The notes beneath the pieces are model-generated. The model searched no databases. It was given only the letters and a program-made list of their open reading frames with translations, and was not told the DNA's origin. A stretch of DNA of 11,156 nucleotides from Achromobacter sp. (GTDB lineage: Bacteria; Pseudomonadota; Gammaproteobacteria; Burkholderiales; Burkholderiaceae_B): NCBI GenBank assembly GCA_003454835.1, contig DMTA01000235.1:1-11156 (forward strand), written 5' to 3'. Positions 1 to 11,156 of the stretch are shown here, piece after piece. The stretch's first letter is position 1; every line of letters begins with the position of its first letter. Made by a program: the position numbers and the translations under genes.

Positions 1-1183
1 CGCCGGTCGGCGTCAGCAAACCGGCGGCGCGGCTGGATTCGTCCACGAAAAGGACATAGCCCTCGAGTTCGTCGCCAGCCGACAGCCCTGCGCCCAACGT
101 GACTGGCGCGGCGTGGCCGGGCACCAGCGCCATCAGGTTGTCGCCCGACCGATACACAATGGTCTCGGCGTGGCGCTGCGACGTCTGGCCTTCTTCATTT
201 GTCAGTGTAGCCACGATGTTGCCGCTGCGGTCCATCACCGCAAAGCCGCCCCGCTGCGGCAGTTGCGCGCTGTAGAAGGCCTTGCCCACCGGCAGGATGC
301 TTTCGTACTGCTGGTCCGCGCCGATCAGCTTGCCGTCCGGCGTCATCAGCACGGAGCCGTCCGGACCGTAGCCCGAGGCCAGGTTGCCGTCGTCCAGCAA
401 GGAGATGTCGTCGAACACCGGGTCCACGACCCAGTTCCAGTCCTTGTCCACCACGCCGTACTTGGCTTGGCCGTTGGTGGCGATGTACAGGCCCTTGTCG
501 CCCAGCGGCCGCGTGATGATGACACCGTTCCCGCCGAAACGGCGTTCGCCGCTGGTTGAACGGTATTCCTCTTTGTACTGAACCGTGGCCCGCGCGGGCA
601 CGCCATCGAACAGGCGCACGGCACGCACCACCTCGTCGAACGGCTCGCCCGCCGGATTGCCCTGGCGGTCGATCAGCATCGGCTTGCCGTCCAGCGTCAC
701 CGCCGCCAGCCCGACCTCGACAAAGTCCTGCGCCGCGTCGTAGCGCGGGCGCACGGCCATGCGGCCATTGCGGTCGATGTAGCCCCACTTGCCTTGCCAC
801 CGCACGGCGGCAAGCCCGTGGCGGAAATCGCCCACTTCCTCAAAGATCGGCTCGATCGCGACGCGGCCGTTCTGGTCCAGAAAGCCCCATGCGTGGCGGC
901 GCAGCGAGTTGTCGCGCGGCACTCGGTCGATGTTCTCGATGGCTGACGGCAGCAGCACCGCGGCGCGACCGTTCTGCAGATCCCGGATGCAGCCGTTGCT
1001 GAAGGGGTTGCGCGCGGAGATGTCGTCGGCAGCCGGATAGACCGGGTAATCGGATTCGCCCAGGCAATAGATGTGGCCAGGCTGCACGTAGCCAGTCTGC
1101 GCCTGAACGGACAGGGATGCGCCCAGCGCGGCCAATGCGCAGGCGAGGCGGGAGGTTCGTAGCACGCGTGACGTCATAATCAT
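1..1183 (-). CDS. B2: exported WG-repeat protein, N-terminal 394 residues (3' end outside window)
   Basis: The frame is open from the ATG at 1183 to the left edge, so only the first 394 codons are visible. Residues 1-28 form a Sec signal peptide: Arg-rich start, hydrophobic ALAALGASL core, cleavage after SVQA. The mature part has Cys40 and Cys65, then two clear WG repeats (WGFLDQNGRVAIEP near 99, WGYIDRNGRMAVRP near 133), an LIDRQG block near 170 and degenerate repeats. It aligns along its whole visible length with B1; residues 97-177 match B1 92-172 at 65 of 81 positions by hand count. The start ATG overlaps the TGA of A2 (ATGA) with no Shine-Dalgarno visible, so translation is probably coupled to A2. 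A second in-frame ATG at 1177 is possible. Function is unknown; WG-repeat proteins (Pfam WG/KWG type) are poorly characterised. A periplasmic or surface location is inferred from the signal peptide. Confidence 0.87.
   Translation of the reverse strand, partial: MIMTSRVLRTSRLACALAALGASLSVQAQTGYVQPGHIYCLGESDYPVYPAADDISARNPFSNGCIRDLQNGRAAVLLPSAIENIDRVPRDNSLRRHAWGFLDQNGRVAIEPIFEEVGDFRHGLAAVRWQGKWGYIDRNGRMAVRPRYDAAQDFVEVGLAAVTLDGKPMLIDRQGNPAGEPFDEVVRAVRLFDGVPARATVQYKEEYRSTSGERRFGGNGVIITRPLGDKGLYIATNGQAKYGVVDKDWNWVVDPVFDDISLLDDGNLASGYGPDGSVLMTPDGKLIGADQQYESILPVGKAFYSAQLPQRGGFAVMDRSGNIVATLTNEEGQTSQRHAETIVYRSGDNLMALVPGHAAPVTLGAGLSAGDELEGYVLFVDESSRAAGLLTPTG
1175..1183 (-). promoter_or_regulatory. ATGA stop/start overlap coupling A2 to B2
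   Basis: On the minus strand the last Glu codon of A2 is followed by TGA at 1182-1180, which overlaps the ATG of B2 at 1183-1181. A second in-frame ATG follows six bases later at 1177. No Shine-Dalgarno is recognisable upstream, which fits termination-reinitiation. The local sequence GAATGATTATGAC matches the A1/B1 junction except for one base. Confidence 0.75.
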
Positions 1184-4100
1184 TCTGCGTTGGCGTTGGC
1201 GTTGTCGACTGCCGGCGGCGAGATGCCGGCGGCCTCGGGGCAGGTGAGTTTCCGGGGCGGCCAGCTCTGCCGGTCCTCTGCATCCACGATCACCACCGTG
1301 TCGCACAGCACGCCGAACAGCGCGGCCGTCTTGCCCTGGGTATCGATGTACTCGATGAGCCGATTGCGCCGCACCAGCGCGCGTCCTTCCGCAAAGTCGC
1401 CGGCCCACGTGAACGCCGGCGCAATCGCATAGCGTCCGGTCAGATCGATGTAGCCGTACAGCTTGCCCGTGCGCTCCAGGCGGCGCGCCCGCGCCAGGCC
1501 GTCCTTCATGCGGCCAAGCTGGTTGAAGTGCGCGCCCACGACGCGCTTGCCATTCGCGTCGATGAAGCCGTACTTGTTGTCGCCGTCGCTGTACGGCGCC
1601 ACGCCTTCGCTGGCCTTGTCGCTGTCGATGGCGTAGCGGCCGGGCAGGCGGGTGACCTCGCGGCCGTGCAGGTCCACCAGAATGCTCGATCCGCTCTCGT
1701 CGTCATTGACCACGACGCGCTGCATCGATGCCAGCGGCGTGGCGTCGCCCCACTTTTCGAGCAGGGTCTTGCCGGTCTGGTCGATCACGCGATAGCCCAC
1801 GCCGATGTTGGCGCGCGCCAGGCCTTCGGGCTGCGTGAAGAACGGATTGAATTCGCCGTATTGCGCGGGCACCTTCATGTTGCCGCGCGCATCGATGGCG
1901 CCTTCGCGTTCGTCAAAGTCGAAGTAAAGCCAGTCGCCGAATTGCTGCTTGTTGTTGGGCCGGCCCTCCGACAAGCGGATGGAGGCGCCCTCTGCGTCGA
2001 TCAGGACAGCGCTTGCGTCGGCCAATTCGCCGAGAAAGCGCCCATCGGCAAGCTTCTGCGGCTTGCCGACCACGGGTTCACTCGTTTTGCCGGTGCGCAG
2101 GTTGATGACGCGGTAGGCGCGTTCGGTGTAGCCGCCGCGATTGCGCTTGCCCTCCGGCGCTTCGGCCAGCATCAGGCCGTTGCCCAGGTATTCCAGATCG
2201 TAGGCGCCGTCGTAGCGGGCGGGCACTACCCACTGGCCCTCGCGGTTGACCACGCCCCAGCGGTTCTTGTCCTGGACCTTGGCCCAGTCGTCCTCGAACT
2301 CCTGTATCTGCTCGTAGGCCGGCTTGAGCACTGGCGCGCCCTTGCGCACGTTCCACAGGCCCGAGCGGCGCTGGCGGTTTTCGTTGCGTGCGTAGTAGTG
2401 CAGCAGTTCGCCGTCAAGGCGCGAGGCCTCTTCCAGCACGTGTGCGGGAACGGACACTTCCTGCCCGCGGGCATCGATCAGAAGCGCGTCGCCGCGCAGC
2501 ATATCCTTCGTGCGGGCCCAGGTGTAGGGGCCCTTGAAGGGGCGGATCTCGGTGTAGCGCGGTTCGATGGCCCACGCGCCGTCCGCGCCGATCGCACCGG
2601 CTTGGTAATTCCTGGTGCGCGCCACGAGGGGCAGCGTGACGTCGTACGTATCGATGTTCGCCCAATCCGGATTCGTGACGATCTTGCCCGCTGCCGTGAG
2701 AATGCCGCTCGGCTGGCCATAGTCGTGCGGACGCAGGAGCGCCAGCGGGGCATCGGCATCGCGGGCGGTCGTGCGCGCGTAGTGGAACTCGCTGACGTCG
2801 TAGGCGCGCAGCTGCGCGAGGGTGGCCTCGTCGAGGATACCAAGACCGTCCCGGCCGTAGATCTGGTACAGCGATTCGTCTGCGTTGGCGCTGGCGGTCG
2901 TTTGTGCGGTGTCTGCCGCGGCGGTGGCAGCATCCATGGCGGCATCTGCCGCGGTATCGGCTTGCATTGCGTCGGCCGCCATGGCGTCGTCTGCGGCAGC
3001 ATCGGCTGCCGCAGCACCGGCTGCCACTGCCTCAGCTTGAGTCGCCTCGGTGGGCGCCGCGTCTGCCACCGTTGCCGCTTCGGCAATATCGGTTGCGGCA
3101 TCGGCGGCAAACGGCGTGTCCTGGAAAGCCGCCGCAGTCTCCGCTTCGGACGCCGCCTGCACTGCAGCCGCCGCGTCGGCGGCATGGGCTTGGTCTTCCG
3201 CGCTCATCGTGTCGCCAGCCGCGTCGGCAACGCCGGCCGGGCGCCGCGCCGCGCCATAGACCCACGCGCGCCCGTGATGAATCTTGACCTCGCCGCTGCG
3301 CAAGGGGATCAGCTGCAGCCGGCCCTCGGGATCGATCAGCAGCGTCATGCCGGGCTCGGCGGCAAAGCGCCAGCCGTCTTGCTCCCGCACACCCACATAG
3401 TCGCTTTCGAACGTATGCATGGATTGGAGCTTGCCATCCAGCAGCAACGTGCCGCCATCCGCGGCCCGCACCAGCCATATGCCCGGCGCCACCCGCTCCA
3501 CGCGTTCGTAACGCTCGGCCGACAGCGCCTCGCCGCGCACATCCACGAATTCCCATGCCCGTTCGCGGTTTACGGCCACCACATCGCCATCGCGAAGCGG
3601 CGGGGCGTTGGAACGCAGCGTCTGCGGGTCGATTGCCCAGGCGCCGCTTTTGTCCAGCAAACCCCACCAGCCGCCGTAGCGCGAATCGCGCGTCTGCGCG
3701 GGCAGTTGGCCGCTGGTCGGCGCGGCCAGCGCCATCACGCCCTCGGGCAGGGCGGCGGGTTTGCCGGTTGTCATGTTCACCAGTCGCGGCGGCGTTGGAA
3801 TCTCCATTGCCGCCAGCTTCTGGCCGGGCTCAAAGCCCGTGGTGCGCGTGCCCAGGGGAAAGGTTTTCAAGACCTTGCCCTGACGATCGATCAACACGTC
3901 CCGACCGTCCTCTTCAGCTAGCGCCGTGCCTTCTGCGTTAAAACCCGTGGCGTCGGAAAAGCGCGGTGGGATCGCCCAGTGTCCACGGTTGTCGATGTAA
4001 CCCCAGCTATCCCCCCGGCTGACTGCGGCAAGCCCATTCTGGAAGGATCTGGCGTCCGAGTATGCAGGCGCGATGGCCATGCCGCCCTGCTTGTCGATGT

Positions 4101-4323
4101 AACCCCAGGCTGCGGACTCGCCATCGGCAGTGCCCACGAACACGGCAGCCAAGCCTTCCTGAAACGGCTGGTGGCACGACATGCCCGCGCCTTCGCTGGC
4201 GCTGCCGTACGCGCATTGCTGCATCCAGCCGGGTTGCGCGGTCGCATTGCGCGGACCCAGGAGCGCCATGCCGGCCAGCGCCACCATTAGCGCCAGCGGC
4301 TTGAAAACGGGCGCCGCCGTCAT
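1180..4323 (-). CDS. A2: large exported WG-repeat protein with Ala-rich insert (1047 aa)
   Basis: Residues 1-29 are a signal peptide with likely cleavage after NATA. Cys37 and Cys50 follow. WG-type repeats are clear near 73, 107, 219, 576, 656, 689, 808, 918 and 957, for example WGYIDKQGGMAIAP and YGYIDLTGRYAIAP. Residues about 361-484 are an Ala/Asp-rich low-complexity insert. The C-terminus carries Cys1007 and Cys1028 in a C-x13-WP-x5-C motif; there is no other cysteine. It is a clear paralogue of A1, sharing blocks such as IDQTGK, LASMQRVV and GYIDLTGRYAIAP; the last repeats match at about 35 of 51 positions by hand count. The ATG at 4323 is the first possible start in frame after a TGA 42 bases upstream, but it has no good ribosome-binding site; it overlaps the stop of a short upstream frame. 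It is probably co-transcribed and coupled with B2. Location (periplasm or surface) is inferred; function is unknown. Confidence 0.93.
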   Translation of the reverse strand: MTAAPVFKPLALMVALAGMALLGPRNATAQPGWMQQCAYGSASEGAGMSCHQPFQEGLAAVFVGTADGESAAWGYIDKQGGMAIAPAYSDARSFQNGLAAVSRGDSWGYIDNRGHWAIPPRFSDATGFNAEGTALAEEDGRDVLIDRQGKVLKTFPLGTRTTGFEPGQKLAAMEIPTPPRLVNMTTGKPAALPEGVMALAAPTSGQLPAQTRDSRYGGWWGLLDKSGAWAIDPQTLRSNAPPLRDGDVVAVNRERAWEFVDVRGEALSAERYERVERVAPGIWLVRAADGGTLLLDGKLQSMHTFESDYVGVREQDGWRFAAEPGMTLLIDPEGRLQLIPLRSGEVKIHHGRAWVYGAARRPAGVADAAGDTMSAEDQAHAADAAAAVQAASEAETAAAFQDTPFAADAATDIAEAATVADAAPTEATQAEAVAAGAAAADAAADDAMAADAMQADTAADAAMDAATAAADTAQTTASANADESLYQIYGRDGLGILDEATLAQLRAYDVSEFHYARTTARDADAPLALLRPHDYGQPSGILTAAGKIVTNPDWANIDTYDVTLPLVARTRNYQAGAIGADGAWAIEPRYTEIRPFKGPYTWARTKDMLRGDALLIDARGQEVSVPAHVLEEASRLDGELLHYYARNENRQRRSGLWNVRKGAPVLKPAYEQIQEFEDDWAKVQDKNRWGVVNREGQWVVPARYDGAYDLEYLGNGLMLAEAPEGKRNRGGYTERAYRVINLRTGKTSEPVVGKPQKLADGRFLGELADASAVLIDAEGASIRLSEGRPNNKQQFGDWLYFDFDEREGAIDARGNMKVPAQYGEFNPFFTQPEGLARANIGVGYRVIDQTGKTLLEKWGDATPLASMQRVVVNDDESGSSILVDLHGREVTRLPGRYAIDSDKASEGVAPYSDGDNKYGFIDANGKRVVGAHFNQLGRMKDGLARARRLERTGKLYGYIDLTGRYAIAPAFTWAGDFAEGRALVRRNRLIEYIDTQGKTAALFGVLCDTVVIVDAEDRQSWPPRKLTCPEAAGISPPAVDNANANAE
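2872..3243 (-). repeat. Ala/Asp/Thr/Met-rich low-complexity insert within A2
   Basis: This stretch encodes residues about 361-484 of A2. It is dominated by Ala with regular Asp, Thr, Met, Glu and Gln, in irregular units such as ADAAADDAMAADAM. In A1 the two flanking blocks (GxAWVxxx and LxQIYxRDG) are joined by only about 25 residues, so most of the 83-residue length difference between A1 and A2 sits here. The coding strand is rich in GCx-GAC-GCx triplets, which could have expanded by slippage. It is likely a flexible or helical linker; no known domain is recognised. Confidence 0.8.
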
Positions 4324-4382
4324 TGCTTGCGGGCGCGGTTGCCAACCGCGGGAACGAAAAAGTCAGACGCGGCGTGCCACAT
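4320..4382 (-). CDS. Possible 20-codon upstream frame (leader peptide) of A2
   Basis: An ATG at 4382 opens 20 codons beginning MWHAAS and ending RKQ. It stops at a TGA (4322-4320) that overlaps the A2 start as ATGA. An AGG lies nine bases before the ATG. The stretch around it resembles the A1 start region: TTACAGT, CTTC and GCAGG occur in the same order at similar spacing before the ATG. Its length equals the extra N-terminal extension of A1 (A2 Met1 aligns with A1 Val22, a GTG codon). It may be a coupling leader, the frameshifted remnant of an A1-like N-terminus, or chance. No expression evidence exists in the sequence beyond these features. Confidence 0.3.
   Translation of the reverse strand: MWHAASDFFVPAVGNRARKQ
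4334..4350 (-). promoter_or_regulatory. Perfect 7-bp stem, 3-base loop hairpin just before the A2 start
   Basis: The sequence CGCGGTT-GCC-AACCGCG is a perfect inverted repeat. In the minus-strand transcript it would fold into a GC-rich hairpin ending ten bases before the A2 start codon, over the region where a ribosome would bind. It lies inside the 20-codon upstream frame, so a ribosome translating that frame would open it. It is not followed by a T-run, so it does not look like a terminator. Confidence 0.45.
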
Positions 4383-4445
4383 GATCCAATGCCTGCCAGA
4401 GTGAGAAGTAAGGCAGCACTGTAACCAGGGGTACGGGGGGACAGA

Positions 4446-4465
4446 TCGATAAATGTAACTATCGA
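4446..4465. promoter_or_regulatory. Inverted repeat TCGATA-N8-TATCGA, candidate operator upstream of A2
   Basis: This is a perfect 6-bp inverted repeat with an 8-bp spacer, in an AT-richer patch of the 220-bp gap between B1 and A2. The size and symmetry suit a dimeric DNA-binding regulator. It lies about 123 bases upstream of the A2 ATG and 64 upstream of the leader ATG. I found no convincing -35/-10 pair at a fixed distance from it and do not recognise the regulator. The rest of the gap (4324-4543) holds no clear intrinsic terminator for B1. Confidence 0.35.
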
Positions 4466-4543
4466 AAACGAAGCGTTAGTATCCCGCCCGTCCGGGTCGA
4501 AATCAGGCTCAATTTCGCGCAAATTTCGCTAACTTGTGGCTTT

Positions 4544-7480
4544 TCACGGTTCGAGTTGCGAGGCAGGGCGGATCCGCTCCACCGCTGTTACGGGAATAGC
4601 CTTCTCCCCGCAGCGTCCAGACATACGCAATGGCCACAGACGTTGCCCAGCCGAGCCATACAACGTGCGTATGCCGCATACCGTCCGCACTTGAGCGAGC
4701 GCCCGGCCGGTGGGGTCGATGATCCGGGAGTCAAACTCAGTCGATACCACCGCACGTTGATTCGCGAAGTCGGATACCGTGAGGAATTGGGCCGGAATGA
4801 CAAATTCACCATCGTGGCCGACGAAACCATAGGCGTTGCGTGATATTGCGGCCGCCAAGCCTTCGCGATAAGCGCCCAACCCATCGAAGGCAGGGCCGGT
4901 CAGCTTGCCCGTGGTGTCGATTGCGCGCTGTCCATCGTTGGGCAAAACAGTCACGGCGCGTCCGTCTGAAAACTCGGTAGCTGCGCCTTCGACGGTGAGC
5001 ACGGTAGTGCCTTTCAGGTCTGCATAATCGGTGACCCTTCTGCCGTTTGCCAGGGTATGGCGGATCAGCATCGAGGATCCGATCGGCCACCGCCACTCGT
5101 CGCTTGCCAGAGTGGCGAGCGTCTTGCCGCTGCCATCAATCACCTGCGTGGCCCCCCCATCCACCCGCAGCGCTCGGGCCGGAGAACCTTGGAAGGGTGT
5201 TCCCGGCAATGGCGAGAGCGCGATCTGCCAGTTGCCTTGGCTGTCCAGATAACCCTGCCGATTCGCACGCATAATGCTCATCCAGTTACCCACCCGGGAA
5301 AAGGTCGCGTCTTGCATGTCGAGAGCGCCGGAGCCGTCGGACGAGATGATCCACCGCCGACGGGCGTTGCCGGCCTCGATGGAGCCATTGTGTGATCGGG
5401 TGACGTGAAGCCCTGGCTCGAATGGGGTCAATGCGAGGCCCTGCGAGTTGAAGAACGCAGCGGGGAGCTGGTATTTATCGTCGCCACCACGCGACATCAG
5501 CCACAGATTCGCGTTGACGCGCTTGGCAGACCGGTGGGCGGCCGGCACGACCCAATTGCCCTGAAGGTCGATGATGCCCAGACGATCGGGCTCCATCGAT
5601 GCGATCGCCTGACCGTCGCGGAAGTCCTCGATGCTGCGAAACTGTGGCGCTGCCAGTTCCTTGCCCGCGACAAAATCGTACAGGCCCCATGGTTCGTCAT
5701 CAGCGGCGGTTTTCAAGTAGCGCGCAATGCCGGGCGCCACCACTTGCGCATCAAAGCTCTCGGGAAGATCGTAGACTTTTCCGTCGACGTCGATCATGCG
5801 CGCCACGCCATCGCCATATATCGGCGCATACCCGTGGCGGAATATGCCGATGTGCTGCTGCTCGGCCAAATCGATGGGTTTGCCCCGGTCGTCCAGCAAC
5901 ACCATGCCTGTCGACGTCCTGGCGGCGTACCGAAACGGCATTGCTTTCGCGCCCTCTGAGCGCTCCTCATCCGCGTCGTTGAGTACGATCAGTTCGACCC
6001 ACGACGCGTCCGTCACATGGGTGCCGTCGCTGAGTATCACGCCGGCGCCTCCGCCGGCCTCGTCGCGCTGGCGGGCGTCAGGTGCGGGTCCCAGCAAGGC
6101 CAGAGGGGCGTTCGTCGCGGTGGCCGGGAGCGGGAGGACGCGCCTGTTTTCGACGACCTGTAGGGTTTGCGGCGTGAGCAACGTCTTGCCGTCCTTGTCC
6201 AGGACATTGAGCAGCGCGTCTTGCGAATCGGATATCCAGAGTCGCCCGTGCTCCAACTGAATGCGTTTGACCCTGGACACCCAGTCATGGTCCGACCCGG
6301 CCCGCAGCCAGGCGCCTGTGGGCGTCAGCAATCCGGCATTCGATTTGCTACCGTCAACGAACAACAGAAACGCGTCGACATCCATGGAGACGCGCAAACC
6401 CTGTCCGAGTGCGATCGGGGCCGCGCGACCCGGCACGAGCGCCATGGTGTTTCCGCTCGCTTCATAAACGATTGTGTCGGCGTATAACCCGGATGTTTCG
6501 GCGTCCTGCCGTGTCAATGTGGCGACCACGGCCCCGTCGTCATTCAGAATGGCAAAATCGCCGCTATTTCGCACGCCTGCCGACCAGAATCCGCCACCCA
6601 CCGCAGTCATGTTGGTGTAGTGTTGGTCCGCGCCGATCAGCTTGCCTTGCGTCGTCACCATGACCCAACCTGCCGGCCCGCGGCCGATTGCCGGCCCTCC
6701 CGTGCGCCAGACACTCAGATTGTCATACACGGGCTGGACAACCCAGTTCCAATCCGCGTCTATCACGCCGGACATGTATTTGGCGTTCGAGGCGATGTGC
6801 AGGCCATTTTCACCAAGCGGCCGTTCTGGGATAACGCCCATTGCGCCGTAGCGGCGCTCGCCCGCCTCGGAGCGGTATTCCCGCTTGTACTTGAGCGTCG
6901 TTCGAGCGGGAACGCCATCGGAAAGATGCACCGAATATACGTCTTCGTCGAATGGCGATCCCACCGGATTGCCCTGTCGATCAATCAGTAGATGTCGCCC
7001 GTCAAGGGTGGCCACCGCCAGTCCGACTTCGGCGATGTCCTGCAACGCGTCAAAGCGCGGACGCACCGCCATCCGGCCGTCTTTATCGATGAATCCCCAT
7101 TTTCCTTGCCACCGCACGGCGGCCAAGCCATGGCGGAAGTCGCGCACAGCCTCAAAGATGGGCCGGATCGCGACGCGGCCGTTTTCGTCCAGGAATCCCC
7201 ACGCATGCTTCGGCAGGGACTCGTCGGCCGACTGGCCATCGGCTTTCGGCAGCGCCGACGGCAAAAGAACGGCGGCCCGATCTCCCGAGATGTCGCGGAT
7301 GCAGCCGTTGGCATAAGCGGGTCGAACGGCCGCGTGGTCCAGCGCGAAAGACGGCGTGATCTCTTGGCGCTCATAGCAGCTTCCATCCTGGACTTGCGCA
7401 TGCGAGGGCAGAGAGGCGCCCAACGCGGCGAAGGCGGCGGCGATGTGAAAGGCCAATTGAATGCGAGGCGTCATATTCAT
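4544..7480 (-). CDS. B1: large exported WG-repeat protein (978 aa)
   Basis: Residues 1-28 are a signal peptide (FHIAAAFAALGASL core, cleavage after SHA). Cys35 and Cys60 follow. WG-type repeats are clear near 94, 128, 598, 634, 743 and 884, such as WGFIDKDGRMAVRP and WGFLDENGRVAIRP. The middle (about 180-590) is more degenerate but keeps DxxG hairpin turns. The C-terminus has Cys935 and Cys957 in C-x13-WP-x6-C, the same motif as in A1 and A2; no other cysteine is present. B2 is its close paralogue. The ATG at 7480 overlaps the TGA of A1 (ATGA); a second in-frame ATG at 7474 could also serve. It is probably coupled to A1 and co-transcribed. A 220-bp gap separates it from A2. No transmembrane segment follows the signal, so a soluble periplasmic or secreted protein is inferred. 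Function is unknown. Confidence 0.94.
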   Translation of the reverse strand: MNMTPRIQLAFHIAAAFAALGASLPSHAQVQDGSCYERQEITPSFALDHAAVRPAYANGCIRDISGDRAAVLLPSALPKADGQSADESLPKHAWGFLDENGRVAIRPIFEAVRDFRHGLAAVRWQGKWGFIDKDGRMAVRPRFDALQDIAEVGLAVATLDGRHLLIDRQGNPVGSPFDEDVYSVHLSDGVPARTTLKYKREYRSEAGERRYGAMGVIPERPLGENGLHIASNAKYMSGVIDADWNWVVQPVYDNLSVWRTGGPAIGRGPAGWVMVTTQGKLIGADQHYTNMTAVGGGFWSAGVRNSGDFAILNDDGAVVATLTRQDAETSGLYADTIVYEASGNTMALVPGRAAPIALGQGLRVSMDVDAFLLFVDGSKSNAGLLTPTGAWLRAGSDHDWVSRVKRIQLEHGRLWISDSQDALLNVLDKDGKTLLTPQTLQVVENRRVLPLPATATNAPLALLGPAPDARQRDEAGGGAGVILSDGTHVTDASWVELIVLNDADEERSEGAKAMPFRYAARTSTGMVLLDDRGKPIDLAEQQHIGIFRHGYAPIYGDGVARMIDVDGKVYDLPESFDAQVVAPGIARYLKTAADDEPWGLYDFVAGKELAAPQFRSIEDFRDGQAIASMEPDRLGIIDLQGNWVVPAAHRSAKRVNANLWLMSRGGDDKYQLPAAFFNSQGLALTPFEPGLHVTRSHNGSIEAGNARRRWIISSDGSGALDMQDATFSRVGNWMSIMRANRQGYLDSQGNWQIALSPLPGTPFQGSPARALRVDGGATQVIDGSGKTLATLASDEWRWPIGSSMLIRHTLANGRRVTDYADLKGTTVLTVEGAATEFSDGRAVTVLPNDGQRAIDTTGKLTGPAFDGLGAYREGLAAAISRNAYGFVGHDGEFVIPAQFLTVSDFANQRAVVSTEFDSRIIDPTGRALAQVRTVCGIRTLYGSAGQRLWPLRMSGRCGEKAIPVTAVERIRPASQLEP
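7472..7480 (-). promoter_or_regulatory. ATGA stop/start overlap coupling A1 to B1
   Basis: The A1 stop TGA (7479-7477) overlaps the B1 ATG (7480-7478). A further in-frame ATG sits at 7474-7472. The local sequence GAATGAATATGAC differs by one base from the A2/B2 junction. Only a weak purine stretch (TAAAGA) precedes the ATG, so reinitiation by ribosomes finishing A1 is likely. Confidence 0.75.
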
Positions 7481-10371
7481 TCTTTAGCGGCGTTGGAGGT
7501 AAGGGAGGAGAAATCTCGAGGGGGGCCTTGGCAGCCAAGCGTGTGAGGGGGCCAGCTTTGTTTGCCCTGCGCGTTCAGGATCACCAATGTGCCGCACCGA
7601 TTCTCGAACCGCGCGGTCGTGTTCCCTTTAGTGTCGATGAACTCCACGAACCGGCCACGCTTGACGAGGGCTCGCTCGTCGCGGAAGTCCTCGGCGTGGG
7701 TGAACACCGGCGCGATGGCGTAGCGTCCGGTCAGGTCGATGTAACCGTGCAGGCTGCCGGTTCGCTCGGGCAGGCGCGCGCGGGCCAGCCCGTTCCTCAA
7801 GGGGCCAAGATCGGTGAAGTGCGGTCCAATCACTCGCTTGCCGGCCGCGTTGATGAAGCCCGCGCCACGATCCTGCCCCCCATAAGGCACCACGCCTTCG
7901 CTGGCGTCCCGGAAGCGAATGGACTGGGAGTCGGGAAAATCCGCAATTTCACGACCCTGGAGATCCAACATGACCTTCGCTCCCTTGCCATTGGATATGA
8001 CGACACGCTGCATCGAGGCCAGCAGGTCGCCGTTGCCTAGATTGCTCGGCAGGCTTTTTCCGGTCTGATCGATGATGCGCCACTGCCTGCCGATGCGCGC
8101 ACTCGCCACCCCTTCTGGCTGAACAAAGAAAGGGTGGATCTCGTGATAGACCGCGGGTATCTTCATGTTGCCCCGTGCATCAATGGCGCCTTGGCGCTTG
8201 TCGTACGACGTATAGAACCAATCGCCGAACTGCTTGTGAGTGTTCGGCTTACCGTCCGACTCGTGCATGGGGCGGCCCTGCGAGTCCAGCAGCACCAGCG
8301 TGCCATCGGGACGCTTTCCCAGAAACTGCCCGTTTTCGAGTGCCTGCGGTTTGTCGATGTAGGGTTCGCTGGACTTGCCGGTTTGAAGATTGATCAGGCG
8401 ATACCCGGTGTTCCCCCTGGTGTCGCGCTCGCGCGCCTGATTGCGGGCGGCGACCGACATCATCCCGTGGCCAAGGTATTGCAAGTCATAGGTGGATTGA
8501 TGCGCGGCGGCGATTACCCAACGGCCCGCCTGGTCAACGACGCCCCAGCGCCCTTTGTCTTGCGCCAGGGCCCAGCGACTGTCGATTGCCTCTATCTGTT
8601 CGTACGCGGGCTTGAATGCCATGGCGCCCTTGCGGATGTCCCAGATTCCCCAACGGTGCTGCTGGTGCTCGTTCATTGCGCGGAAGGAAAGCAGATCGCC
8701 CGTGATGCGCGGCGAGTCTTTCATGACCATTGCGGGAACCTCCAGCTTCTTGCCGGTCGCATCGATCAGAACGGCGTCTTCGTCTTTCCCCCCGTGCGTG
8801 AAGGCCCACGTATAGAAGCCCTTGAATCTGTTTATGCCGCGGTAGGCCGGGGACACCGCCCACGTACCGTCTCCAGCTATCGCCCCGACGTTCCAGTCCC
8901 TGGTTTTCACCGGGAGCGGCATCGTGACGTCGTACGTTTCGATGTGCTCCCATTGCAGGTTCCCAACGATCTTCCCCGCTGCGGTCAGCACTCTGAGGGG
9001 GCCGTCGAAACTGTGGTCGCGCACGAGCGCCAATGGCATGTCTTTGTCATTTAGCCCACCTTCTTTGGCCGGGCGGAATTCGTCAATGCGATAGCCGCGC
9101 AACGCTTCGACGGTGGCGTCATCCAGCATGGCGCCGCCATCGCGGTCGTAGATCTGCACGAGCGAGACTTTGCGCGCGTTGTCGTAGTCCTCGTTGTCCG
9201 CGTCTGCCCTGGCGTCGCCAGTCGTTTGCGCGACGCTGCTGAACACCCAGGCAAATCCCCGTTGGATTTCCACCTTGGCGTTTCGCAAGGGCAAAACATG
9301 GACGCCTCCACTGGGGTTGACGAGGATCGTTGTTTCGCTGCCGGCGGCGTAACGCCATCCTTTGTCGTTTCGCAGGTGGGTTTGCGCGCCGTCGAGTGTA
9401 TGGATCAGGTCGAGATTGCCGTCCAGCAGCATGGGCGCGCCGGCGTCCGGGTGCGCCAGCCAGAGGCCTGGCGACAATAGTTCGATTTTCCTGTACGTGC
9501 CCGGCGGCAGGACCTCGCCGCGCTCATTGAAGAAATACCAATAGCGTTCACGCTTGACTGCCAGAACGCTGCCAGATTGAATCGGGGGGGCGACGGCGCG
9601 CAGAACCAGCGGAGTGACCGTCCACCCTTTCTCAGGGTGCAGCAGCCCCCACCAACTTTCGTGCCGTCTCACCAGCGAGCTTGCCGGGATAAGGCCACCG
9701 CCGCCAGCCAGGGGCGCGGCCAATTCGTTGACATCGTGCGGCAACTTGACGGGCTTGCGAGTCGCGGTGTTAAAGAGGCGCGGGGGAGTCGGCACGTCGA
9801 TTAGGGCCAACGTCTGGCCAGGTCGGAAGCCAGTGGAATGAACGCCAAGCGGAAAGGTCTTGACGATCTTCCCCTTGCGGTCGATCAGCACGTCGCGATC
9901 ACCGTCCTGGACAACGGCGGTGCCGTTCGCGTTGAAGCCGGTGGCTTCGGCGAAGCGCGGTTCGATGACCCAGCGTCCCTGGGTGTCGATGTAACCCCAG
10001 GTGCGACCCAGAGTGACGGGGGCCAGACCATTCTGGAATGCCCCCGCGGTCGTGAACGCAGGGGAGATTGCCATGGCTCCAGACTTGTCTAGATATCCCC
10101 AGGCGGGCTGGTTCGCGTTGGCGGTGCCCGCGATTACGGCGGCGAATCCCTCCTGATAGGACCTGTGACACCCGGTCGAATATCCCTGGTAGCCGTGGTT
10201 GCGGTCGCATCCTGTGCGCCAGTCCGCAGACGCTTCCAGAGGCAGCAGCGCGAATCCCGCAAACGCTGCGGCGACCGTCAGGGACGTGATCGGGAATCCG
10301 GGCCTCACCACGCGTGGTCGACGGGCATCGCCAAAACCAATAACACCTGGGTGGGGGGAACTGTGCGCCAT
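7477..10371 (-). CDS. A1: large exported WG-repeat protein (964 aa)
   Basis: With the ATG at 10371 the protein has a long basic n-region (RRPR near 17-20), then a hydrophobic core (VAAAFAGFALL) and a cleavage site after EASA (residue 49). GTG codons at 10311 and 10308 would give a normal-sized signal peptide and align with the A2 start, so the start is uncertain; CAGG eight bases before the ATG mildly favours the longer form. Cys55 and Cys68 follow. WG-type repeats are clear near 91, 125, 241, 501, 575, 609, 728, 836 and 876. The C-terminal motif has Cys926 and Cys947 (C-x13-WP-x5-C), with no other cysteine. It lacks the Ala-rich insert of A2, having a short acidic linker (about 383-402). It is first in the visible operon, divergent from the MFS gene, and coupled to B1. 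Function is unknown; export to the periplasm or beyond is inferred. Confidence 0.93.
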   Translation of the reverse strand: MAHSSPHPGVIGFGDARRPRVVRPGFPITSLTVAAAFAGFALLPLEASADWRTGCDRNHGYQGYSTGCHRSYQEGFAAVIAGTANANQPAWGYLDKSGAMAISPAFTTAGAFQNGLAPVTLGRTWGYIDTQGRWVIEPRFAEATGFNANGTAVVQDGDRDVLIDRKGKIVKTFPLGVHSTGFRPGQTLALIDVPTPPRLFNTATRKPVKLPHDVNELAAPLAGGGGLIPASSLVRRHESWWGLLHPEKGWTVTPLVLRAVAPPIQSGSVLAVKRERYWYFFNERGEVLPPGTYRKIELLSPGLWLAHPDAGAPMLLDGNLDLIHTLDGAQTHLRNDKGWRYAAGSETTILVNPSGGVHVLPLRNAKVEIQRGFAWVFSSVAQTTGDARADADNEDYDNARKVSLVQIYDRDGGAMLDDATVEALRGYRIDEFRPAKEGGLNDKDMPLALVRDHSFDGPLRVLTAAGKIVGNLQWEHIETYDVTMPLPVKTRDWNVGAIAGDGTWAVSPAYRGINRFKGFYTWAFTHGGKDEDAVLIDATGKKLEVPAMVMKDSPRITGDLLSFRAMNEHQQHRWGIWDIRKGAMAFKPAYEQIEAIDSRWALAQDKGRWGVVDQAGRWVIAAAHQSTYDLQYLGHGMMSVAARNQARERDTRGNTGYRLINLQTGKSSEPYIDKPQALENGQFLGKRPDGTLVLLDSQGRPMHESDGKPNTHKQFGDWFYTSYDKRQGAIDARGNMKIPAVYHEIHPFFVQPEGVASARIGRQWRIIDQTGKSLPSNLGNGDLLASMQRVVISNGKGAKVMLDLQGREIADFPDSQSIRFRDASEGVVPYGGQDRGAGFINAAGKRVIGPHFTDLGPLRNGLARARLPERTGSLHGYIDLTGRYAIAPVFTHAEDFRDERALVKRGRFVEFIDTKGNTTARFENRCGTLVILNAQGKQSWPPHTLGCQGPPRDFSSLTSNAAKE

Positions 10372-10427
10372 GGAGAAGACCTGCGGAATGAAGGAACAGC
10401 GGACTGTAATAACGGGCCGCGCTGCAG

Positions 10428-10447
10428 CAATTAGAAATATGTAATTG
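10428..10447. promoter_or_regulatory. Inverted repeat CAATTA-N8-TAATTG upstream of A1
   Basis: This is a perfect 6-bp inverted repeat with an 8-bp spacer, the same geometry as the repeat upstream of A2 but a different sequence. With a 4-base bulge the arms extend outward (GCAG on the left, CTGC on the right). It lies about 57 bases upstream of the A1 ATG in the divergent intergenic region and could be an operator. A weak promoter candidate for A1 on the minus strand, TTGCTG-N16-TACAGT (10404-10431), overlaps its left arm. Confidence 0.35.
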
Positions 10448-10515
10448 CGGGCTGCGAGCAGTTATGGCCGGTAAATCGAATATCCCTTTCGAAGCCTGTT
10501 CTGCTATTGCGGGCT
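10444..10515. promoter_or_regulatory. Direct repeat ATTGCGGGCT (two copies) flanking a TCGAA-N7-TTCGA inverted repeat
   Basis: ATTGCGGGCT occurs at 10444-10453 and again at 10506-10515, 62 bases apart. Between them, TCGAA-TATCCCT-TTCGA (10476-10492) is a 5-bp inverted repeat. They sit in the 265-bp region between the divergent A1 and MFS genes and may be regulator sites; chance cannot be excluded for elements this short. Confidence 0.3.
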
Positions 10516-10636: not shown

Positions 10637-11156
10637 ATGCCCACCCCCCAAAAACCTTCCCTGGATGCATCCCAGCTTTGGCTGCTGGTCCTGGCCGGCG
10701 GCGTCGTCATGGGCCTTGCCCTGGGCGTGCGCCATGTGCAGGGCCTGTTTCTCCTGCCCGTCACGATGGACCGCGGGTGGAGCCGAGAAACCTTCGCCAT
10801 GGCGCTGGCCGTGCAGAACCTGACGTGGGGCATCGTGCAGCCCTTCACCGGCATGATTGCCGACCGCTATGGCTCGGCCAAGGTGATTGCCGGCGGGCTG
10901 GTGTTCTACGCGCTGGGCCTTGCCGGCATGGCGCATGCTTCGACGCCTGCGGCCTTCATGTGGACGGCGGGCGTGTGCATTGGAATCGCGTTGTCCGGCA
11001 CCGCCTTCGCAGCCATCTACGGCGCGCTCAGCCGCCTGGTGCCACCGGACCGCCGCAGCTGGGCGCTGGGCGTGGCTGGGGCGGTTGGCGGCCTGGGACA
11101 GTTCACGATGGTGCCGGCGGCGCAATGGCTGATCGGCGGCTGGGGGTGGGGCGCGG
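10637..11156 (+). CDS. MFS transporter, N-terminal 173 residues (3' end outside window)
   Basis: The frame is open from the ATG at 10637 to the right edge. The protein is strongly hydrophobic. TM1 lies at about 13-33, TM2 at about 52-71, the conserved MFS loop 2-3 motif A at 72-82 (GMIADRYGSAK), TM3 at about 83-101, TM4 at about 105-130, then a basic loop (VPPDRRSW) and TM5. The start is supported by GAGAGG six bases upstream. A complete MFS protein has about 400 residues, so somewhat under half is visible. Substrate cannot be told from this part; the style resembles the proton-coupled organic anion/monocarboxylate-type MFS proteins common in Burkholderiales. It is transcribed away from the WG-repeat genes and shares the 10372-10636 regulatory region with A1, but nothing shows a functional link. 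Confidence 0.9.
   Translation, partial: MPTPQKPSLDASQLWLLVLAGGVVMGLALGVRHVQGLFLLPVTMDRGWSRETFAMALAVQNLTWGIVQPFTGMIADRYGSAKVIAGGLVFYALGLAGMAHASTPAAFMWTAGVCIGIALSGTAFAAIYGALSRLVPPDRRSWALGVAGAVGGLGQFTMVPAAQWLIGGWGWGA

Follow-up and report, generated by a model that had tools for sequence, protein, structure and literature searches.

Four WG-repeat genes in an A-B-A-B array

The stretch of DNA analyzed here (the window) is one entire contig, C16, of 11,156 bp, from a draft assembly of Achromobacter sp. (4.53 Mb, 585 contigs, 79% complete). Its minus strand carries genes for two types of exported WG-repeat protein, here called A and B, in the order A1, B1, A2, B2; the first three are complete, and the contig ends inside B2. 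The components of the array are as follows.

7477..10371, minus strand: A1, exported WG-repeat protein of 964 amino acids (aa), Cys at 55, 68, 926, and 947; the long Ala-rich linker is absent
4544..7480, minus strand: B1, exported WG-repeat protein of 978 aa, Cys at 35, 60, 935, and 957
1180..4323, minus strand: A2, 1,047 aa; clusters in the tree with the single A of other Achromobacter
2..1183, minus strand: first 394 codons of B2, which very likely goes on in contig C148 (L019, 3-1742, plus strand)
7477..7480, minus strand: overlap of A1 stop and B1 start, ATGA
1180..1183, minus strand: overlap of A2 stop and B2 start, ATGA

The array is real. The closed chromosome of another Achromobacter genome, G037, has the identical A-B-A-B order, so an assembly artifact does not account for it. 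The initial annotation had described four consecutive minus-strand genes of about 960 to 1,050 residues, with A1/A2 and B1/B2 as paralogous pairs in the same order. The gene arrangement stands, and alignments bear out the pairs, with identities of 52% and 47% over two blocks for A1/A2 and 59% over the 394-codon piece for B1/B2; the quoted length fits all four proteins only if the C148 piece is added to B2, and the description "giant" was overstated. Because the window is the whole contig, the full length of B2 cannot be read within it. Contig C148 starts with a 579-aa B-type frame, its end has 15 exact bases in common with that of C16, and both B2 pieces are ∼96% identical to one and the same gene of the related genome G015; the C148 frame is very likely the continuation of B2.

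A1 and B1 can themselves be aligned, with 23% identity over 968 columns (E = 5e-35). By this measure A and B are distant paralogues of one another, a relationship absent from the initial annotation. PF14903 (WG_beta_rep, also called KWG) is the sole Pfam family found at E ≤ 1 in all four proteins, with scores of 139.3, 114, 203.1, and 102.2 bits against a curated cutoff of 25.6. NCBIfam gave no match to any of the four at E ≤ 1, and the Pfam and NCBIfam searches at that threshold gave no toxin or immunity domain and no anchor or translocator domain. PADLOC-DB, which covers described defense systems only, had no match at E ≤ 1 for A1, B1, or A2. Searches with A1 gave a single PHROGs match (E = 0.48), taken as chance, no solved structure at E ≤ 1, and 14 plasmid records, all below 60% identity and none spanning 80% of the query.

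The N-termini of all four proteins resemble signal peptides, as judged by eye. A lipobox is absent from A1, A2, and B1, and lipobox-like sequences occur in 2 of 58 A rows and 1 of 52 B rows, a set to which B2 does not belong. A1, A2, and B1 each contain exactly four cysteines, two near either end; they do not vary among the 41 A proteins aligned, and across 37 B proteins their conservation is at least 90%. Structures predicted for A1 and B1 had mean confidence scores (predicted local distance difference test, pLDDT) of 83.6 and 83.0, and among the matches listed by a Foldseek search, DDB1, DPP4, and translation-factor propellers (3wj9; 4uer chain b) ranked at the top.

A and B are found together across distant proteobacteria

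Among the matches listed, A1 had matches in 42 of 43 Achromobacter genomes and B1 in all 43; numbers of pairs per genome in this genus rest on match counts, the best matches listed, and the loci fetched. B directly follows A in each of the 42 genomes that have A: an intact A precedes B in 39, and in 3 A is split between contigs, with its end followed by B. A second pair occurs in two of the 42, the window genome and G037. When the start nearest to the stop is taken, 33 of 42 A/B junctions are 4-base overlaps and in the other 9 the start lies 2 nt past the stop (3 of these 42 junctions come from other genera). The remaining genome, G024, lacks A and retains only a B fragment of ∼150 residues (L182, 8129-8542); the major facilitator superfamily (MFS) transporter and phosphoenolpyruvate (PEP)-mutase genes that flank the locus elsewhere gave no match within 18 kb around it.

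The pairing extends beyond the genus. A family-wide sample of 250 genomes gave 33 with a match, comprising 28 of 29 Achromobacter genomes, three genomes from two other genera, each of which holds an A-B pair, and two whose weak matches are to other WG proteins. In a class-wide sample of 369 genomes, A and B were each found at E ≤ 1e-30 in the same two, the window's own and G465. A collection of named genomes, searched via A, yielded 79 loci from the best 80 of 306; the 51 with a strong A by profile (L096-L146) were checked for pairing, and the other 28 (L147-L174), distant WG matches, lie outside the pairing count. These 51 loci comprise 26 from Achromobacter and 25 others: 10 Rahnella, 3 Rouxiella, 2 Ewingella, Edaphovirga, Hafnia, two further Enterobacterales, 2 Bordetella, Inquilinus, Arhodomonas, Modicisalibacter, and one metagenome-assembled genome (MAG) of the Burkholderiales. 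The hosts fall in the alpha-, beta-, and gammaproteobacteria. B adjoins A in 47 of the 51, and 3 Achromobacter loci are cut by contig ends. Outside Achromobacter, A is followed by B at 24 of 25 loci; the stop of A and the start of B either overlap or are separated by 2 nt. At nine of these loci the flanking genes were read; they are unlike those of Achromobacter and differ between groups, and no third gene kept with the pair was noticed in any of the flanks read, those of Achromobacter included.

The suggestion in the initial annotation that A and B co-occur as partners thus agrees with the 47 adjacent pairs among 51 loci, and a solitary gene is not the common state, with one A lacking B in that set. 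The partnership is well supported by gene content and looks obligate.

The two proteins also diverge in step. Across 37 Achromobacter genomes (G000, G090, G198, and G221 set aside, G037 represented by copy 2, and the MFS gene found in 31), A and B distances correlate at 0.96 to 0.97, and at 0.85 to 0.95 once a neighbor gene is removed. Terminal branches of A and B give a rho of 0.93 (0.89 in the MFS set), against 0.27 to 0.70 for A or B with a neighbor.

Some genes near the pair were recorded separately. The G024 fragment adjoins a gene resembling, by eye, one for a siderophore-interacting protein. Three Enterobacterales loci (L113, L119, and L122) share a similar 130-aa gene downstream of B, whose product resembles an ASCH-domain protein. 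In two Bordetella genomes (L135 and L144), two genes that look by eye like response regulators lie upstream of A-B on the same strand.

A paired promoter element precedes A

Upstream of A2 lies a conserved element, of which a diverged copy precedes A1.

4417..4459, minus strand: conserved A2 promoter element with a RisA-like motif; its two GTTACA boxes stand 34 bp from each other
10403..10445, minus strand: diverged element copy before A1, both boxes ATTACA, 35 bp apart

The conserved element consists of GTTACA(T/C) followed by GTTACAGTG or a one-letter variant of it. It is present in 41 of 42 Achromobacter genomes, once per locus stretch and at the start of A, with a length of 43 bases in 37 and 44 in 4; it is absent from three loci of other genera in the family. 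When eight whole genomes were scanned with a stricter paired pattern, seven had a single match, each at an A gene, and G037 had none, because its first box continues with CT, not TT. The second box alone, with one mismatch allowed, gave seven exact sites at A and, elsewhere, three sites with one mismatch, a count that the reversed control equaled or exceeded. Of 40 Achromobacter A genes, 32 are preceded by at least two GTTACA motifs; among random stretches of the same loci, 56 of 4,100 contain as many. Six of the 40 have no GTTACA in the stretch read; in four of these the element is further off, and the other two are A1 genes. The double ATTACA box also precedes A1 of G037 and is lacking from 39 other loci. 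An Rfam scan of the window at the gathering cutoff gave no match, and sigma-70 and terminator scans of it gave counts no higher than in shuffled sequence.

GTTACA is the consensus reported for 391 of 430 RisA peaks from chromatin immunoprecipitation sequencing of Bordetella pertussis (PMC11019879). The A2-B2 promoter resembles the RisA regulon described there in its GTTACA motif; it differs in that Achromobacter has two precisely spaced boxes, and none precedes two g36 A genes, probably from Bordetella. By analogy, A2-B2 may be under RisA control.

The promoter, A, and B were duplicated together

The initial annotation had taken the duplicated unit to be the A-B pair and not a single gene. This is borne out, and the unit also includes the promoter, since a diverged element stands before A1 in both the window and G037.

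4479..10514, minus strand: extra promoter-A1-B1 unit, ends approximate (blastn blocks: right ends at ∼10515, left resumes at ∼4478)
3550..3900, no strand assigned: apparent recombination breakpoint, where identity to G015 drops from ∼97% to ∼82 to 84%
10637..11156, plus strand: N-terminal part of a divergent MFS transporter (PF07690), a flank outside the module

C148 continues past the B frame with a PEP-mutase family gene, a LysR regulator gene, and one for a siderophore-interacting protein. PEP-mutase and LysR frames are found at all 37 other Achromobacter loci and the MFS gene of the right window edge at 31 of the 37, so both array edges belong to the usual locus.

In trees from quick searches, which have long branches, A1 and B1 form groups nested within the genus, next to the A2 and B2 group of the mucicolens/spanius genomes; the two pairs do not branch apart. 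An origin of A1B1 outside the genus was rejected by approximately unbiased (AU) tests (p = 0.014 and 0.0008), run without four A rows for A and without two B rows and the B2 piece for B. G015 is the nearest relative of the window genome by both A2 and B2.

When the window genome is compared with G037, synonymous divergence (dS) reaches 0.88 in A1 and 0.98 in B1, against 0.53 in A2, 0.43 and 0.48 in the two pieces of B2, 0.43 in the PEP-mutase gene, and 0.31 in the MFS fragment. The LysR values from this comparison were impossible, owing to a frame artifact, and were excluded. Divergence of the A1B1 copies therefore seems to be roughly double that of the remaining locus. Neither G015 nor G003, which are nearest by A2B2, has A1B1, while a protein labeled A. 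mucicolens (P0007) belongs to the A1 type, at 84% identity, so the presence of A1B1 seems variable under that species name. Two pairs of proteins, P0006/P0093 and P0080/P0090, come from genomes whose longest contigs match in length, which may point to additional arrays. Identity to G015 is 95 to 97% over the C-terminal part of A2, B2, and the right flank, 88% over the first part of A2, 78% in the B1-A2 gap, and 91% over the MFS part, which is nearer to G003 (94%). The drop in identity to G015 lies between ∼3,600 and 3,900. The window locus is, on these comparisons, a recombination mosaic: either the unit entered the window genome by recombination or a single-pair allele was transferred into G015. 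No relic of A1 or B1 was found at E 1e-3 in the up to 900 bp upstream of A at single-pair loci.

A proposed two-protein envelope complex and its alternatives

We propose that A and B diverged long ago and are both envelope proteins with WG beta-propellers, exported via Sec, that would act as one heteromeric complex, with A1-B1 as a re-regulated accessory copy; we put the probability of this reading at about 0.6. The translationally coupled two-gene operon would yield A and B in balance. In each protein the N- and C-terminal blades would together close a propeller, with the middle part as an insertion, and disulfides at either end would probably staple the protein; the A:B complex would most likely bind or scaffold an envelope or extracellular ligand. 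In Achromobacter the operon stands behind two GTTACA boxes, so its control probably lies with a RisA-like regulator of the OmpR type. In the mucicolens/spanius group the promoter-A-B module would have been duplicated in tandem, and the extra copy, diverged and with both boxes altered, would be gained or lost through homologous recombination within the locus.

Several observations weigh against this proposal. The pairs examined are those found via A, plus those found via B in the genus and class samples, and the Burkholderiales MAG carries an A-type gene (L140, 460-3045) with no B in the remaining 734 bp, the only such case among the named loci not cut by a contig end. The A-B rate correlation may also stem from linkage and shared recombination. 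TM-scores in the Foldseek search, normalized by query length, were 0.08 to 0.16 over the top 50 rows, and the fold match to the models says only propeller, and nothing more specific. As to regulation, the RisA motif comes from another genus; in the closest relative, G015, a near match alone takes the element's place, none of the three A genes from other genera of the family (two genera) is preceded by GTTACA, and among 22 more distant loci a single GTTACA lies upstream in 12 and two in none. As to the duplication, A1 and A2 of the window differ by a dS of 1.10, against 0.60 to 0.90 between A2 and five other Achromobacter A genes, and A1 stands at 0.95 and 1.09 from the two others tested; an A1/A2 split older than the trees say would fit these values, which are rough near saturation.

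A bolder version, tentative and in our view rather doubtful, is that A1:B1 forms a second, insulated machine that exchanges no subunits with A2:B2, has altered operators, and spreads between species via recombination inside the A gene, A-B itself being an undescribed, widely scattered two-protein envelope machine of paired WG propellers. A1B1 might instead have no role of its own, as a redundant copy that adds dosage or as a duplicate in decay, which would be compatible with an A:B complex. Its long stems (0.48 for A1, 0.38 for B1), its absence from G015 and G003, its altered promoter boxes, and slightly raised ratios of nonsynonymous to synonymous divergence (dN/dS; 0.34 for A1 and 0.31 for B1, against 0.21 to 0.27 for A2 and B2) would suit such a copy. 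We nevertheless find this unlikely: A1 and B1 are open in both genomes at dS ∼0.9 to 1.0 with dN/dS near 0.3, the four cysteines are retained, and the altered boxes before A1 are identical in both.

Operons frequently encode proteins that make no physical contact, which counts in favor of A and B being independent envelope proteins, merely cotranscribed and sharing a pathway. The A:B contact in our proposal is itself deduced from pairing and coupling. Independence is nonetheless improbable in the face of a pair that is retained across distant proteobacteria despite changing neighbors and with stop-start coupling, of the G024 genome, where A is lost and B is down to a fragment, and of the strong A-B rate coupling.

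Selection on A and B, pooled, is purifying. Over 14 orthologous comparisons dN/dS is 0.11 to 0.34; in pooled 40-codon windows (15 close pairs each) the median is 0.27 for A and 0.29 for B, the maximum 0.52 and 0.55, and none of 47 exceeds 1 for either protein. Single pairs reach pN/pS values of 0.57 (A) and 0.79 (B), the latter from an odd yet retained pair, G032-G004. The initial annotation had suggested a surface recognition or self/non-self role, as an inference. On a reading of this kind, as a recognition or antigenic-variation pair, the diverged pairs would differ in specificity and be exchanged between strains. A and B do evolve ∼3 to 6 times faster than their neighbors (median pair distances of ∼1.1 and 1.0 against 0.17 to 0.31), A1B1 comes and goes between near relatives at a mosaic locus, and A1 and B1 of G037 sit on long branches; still, with no pooled window above 1, a single pair in 40 of 42 genomes, no domain for anchoring or translocation, and no match of A1, B1, or A2 to a toxin, immunity, or defense model, diversification of this type is not supported, the idea is weak, and we hold it to be quite improbable.

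Relation to known proteins

All four proteins score far above the curated cutoff for PF14903 and differ from other members in that two long paralogues form a coupled pair with conserved terminal cysteines. BamB is a single-propeller lipoprotein of the BAM complex, with a lipobox and N-terminal Cys; it and other periplasmic beta-propellers show 9 to 12% identity in alignments to the proteins described here, and no bam gene was noticed in the flanks read. DDB1, DPP4, 3wj9, and 4uer chain b share a propeller closed by both chain ends; they are at most 7 to 11% identical and eukaryotic or enzymatic, and function is not transferable from them.

The portions of the literature on WG/KWG repeats that were searched describe no paired WG system and no experimentally characterized member, only passing mentions, and a search for Achromobacter periplasmic beta-propellers gave nothing related. 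A predicted WG lipoprotein of Pseudomonas aeruginosa, PA14_16330, is among the top genes of an RsmA study (PMC8855297), the Pfam family appears in a modeling table with a best structural match of 0.06 (PMC8078820), a WG Pfam is reported solely from commensal Acidovorax, in 40% of them (PMC8767351), and KWG served as a species-group marker (PMC5350142). PA14_16330, compared here by its description in that source only, is likewise a predicted envelope WG-repeat protein; it has a lipoprotein signal, whereas A1, A2, and B1 lack a lipobox and are paired.

WG repeats are widespread, and a coupled pair across distant proteobacteria would give the family a testable functional unit. The tandem copy offers a natural test of how a two-protein complex might be duplicated, insulated, and re-regulated, and the promoter element is a first regulatory handle on A-B.

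Two further observations concern WG proteins of the genus. A2 contains a low-complexity linker, located by sequence comparison.

2875..3207, minus strand: Ala/Asp-rich low-complexity linker of A2

Its length is highly variable across Achromobacter, it is almost missing in A1, and the draft assemblies G008 and G011 break there. A separate, shorter WG-repeat protein (frames of ∼610 to 810 aa) is encoded elsewhere in several Achromobacter genomes, for example at G038:C1:4453893 and G036:C1:6180.
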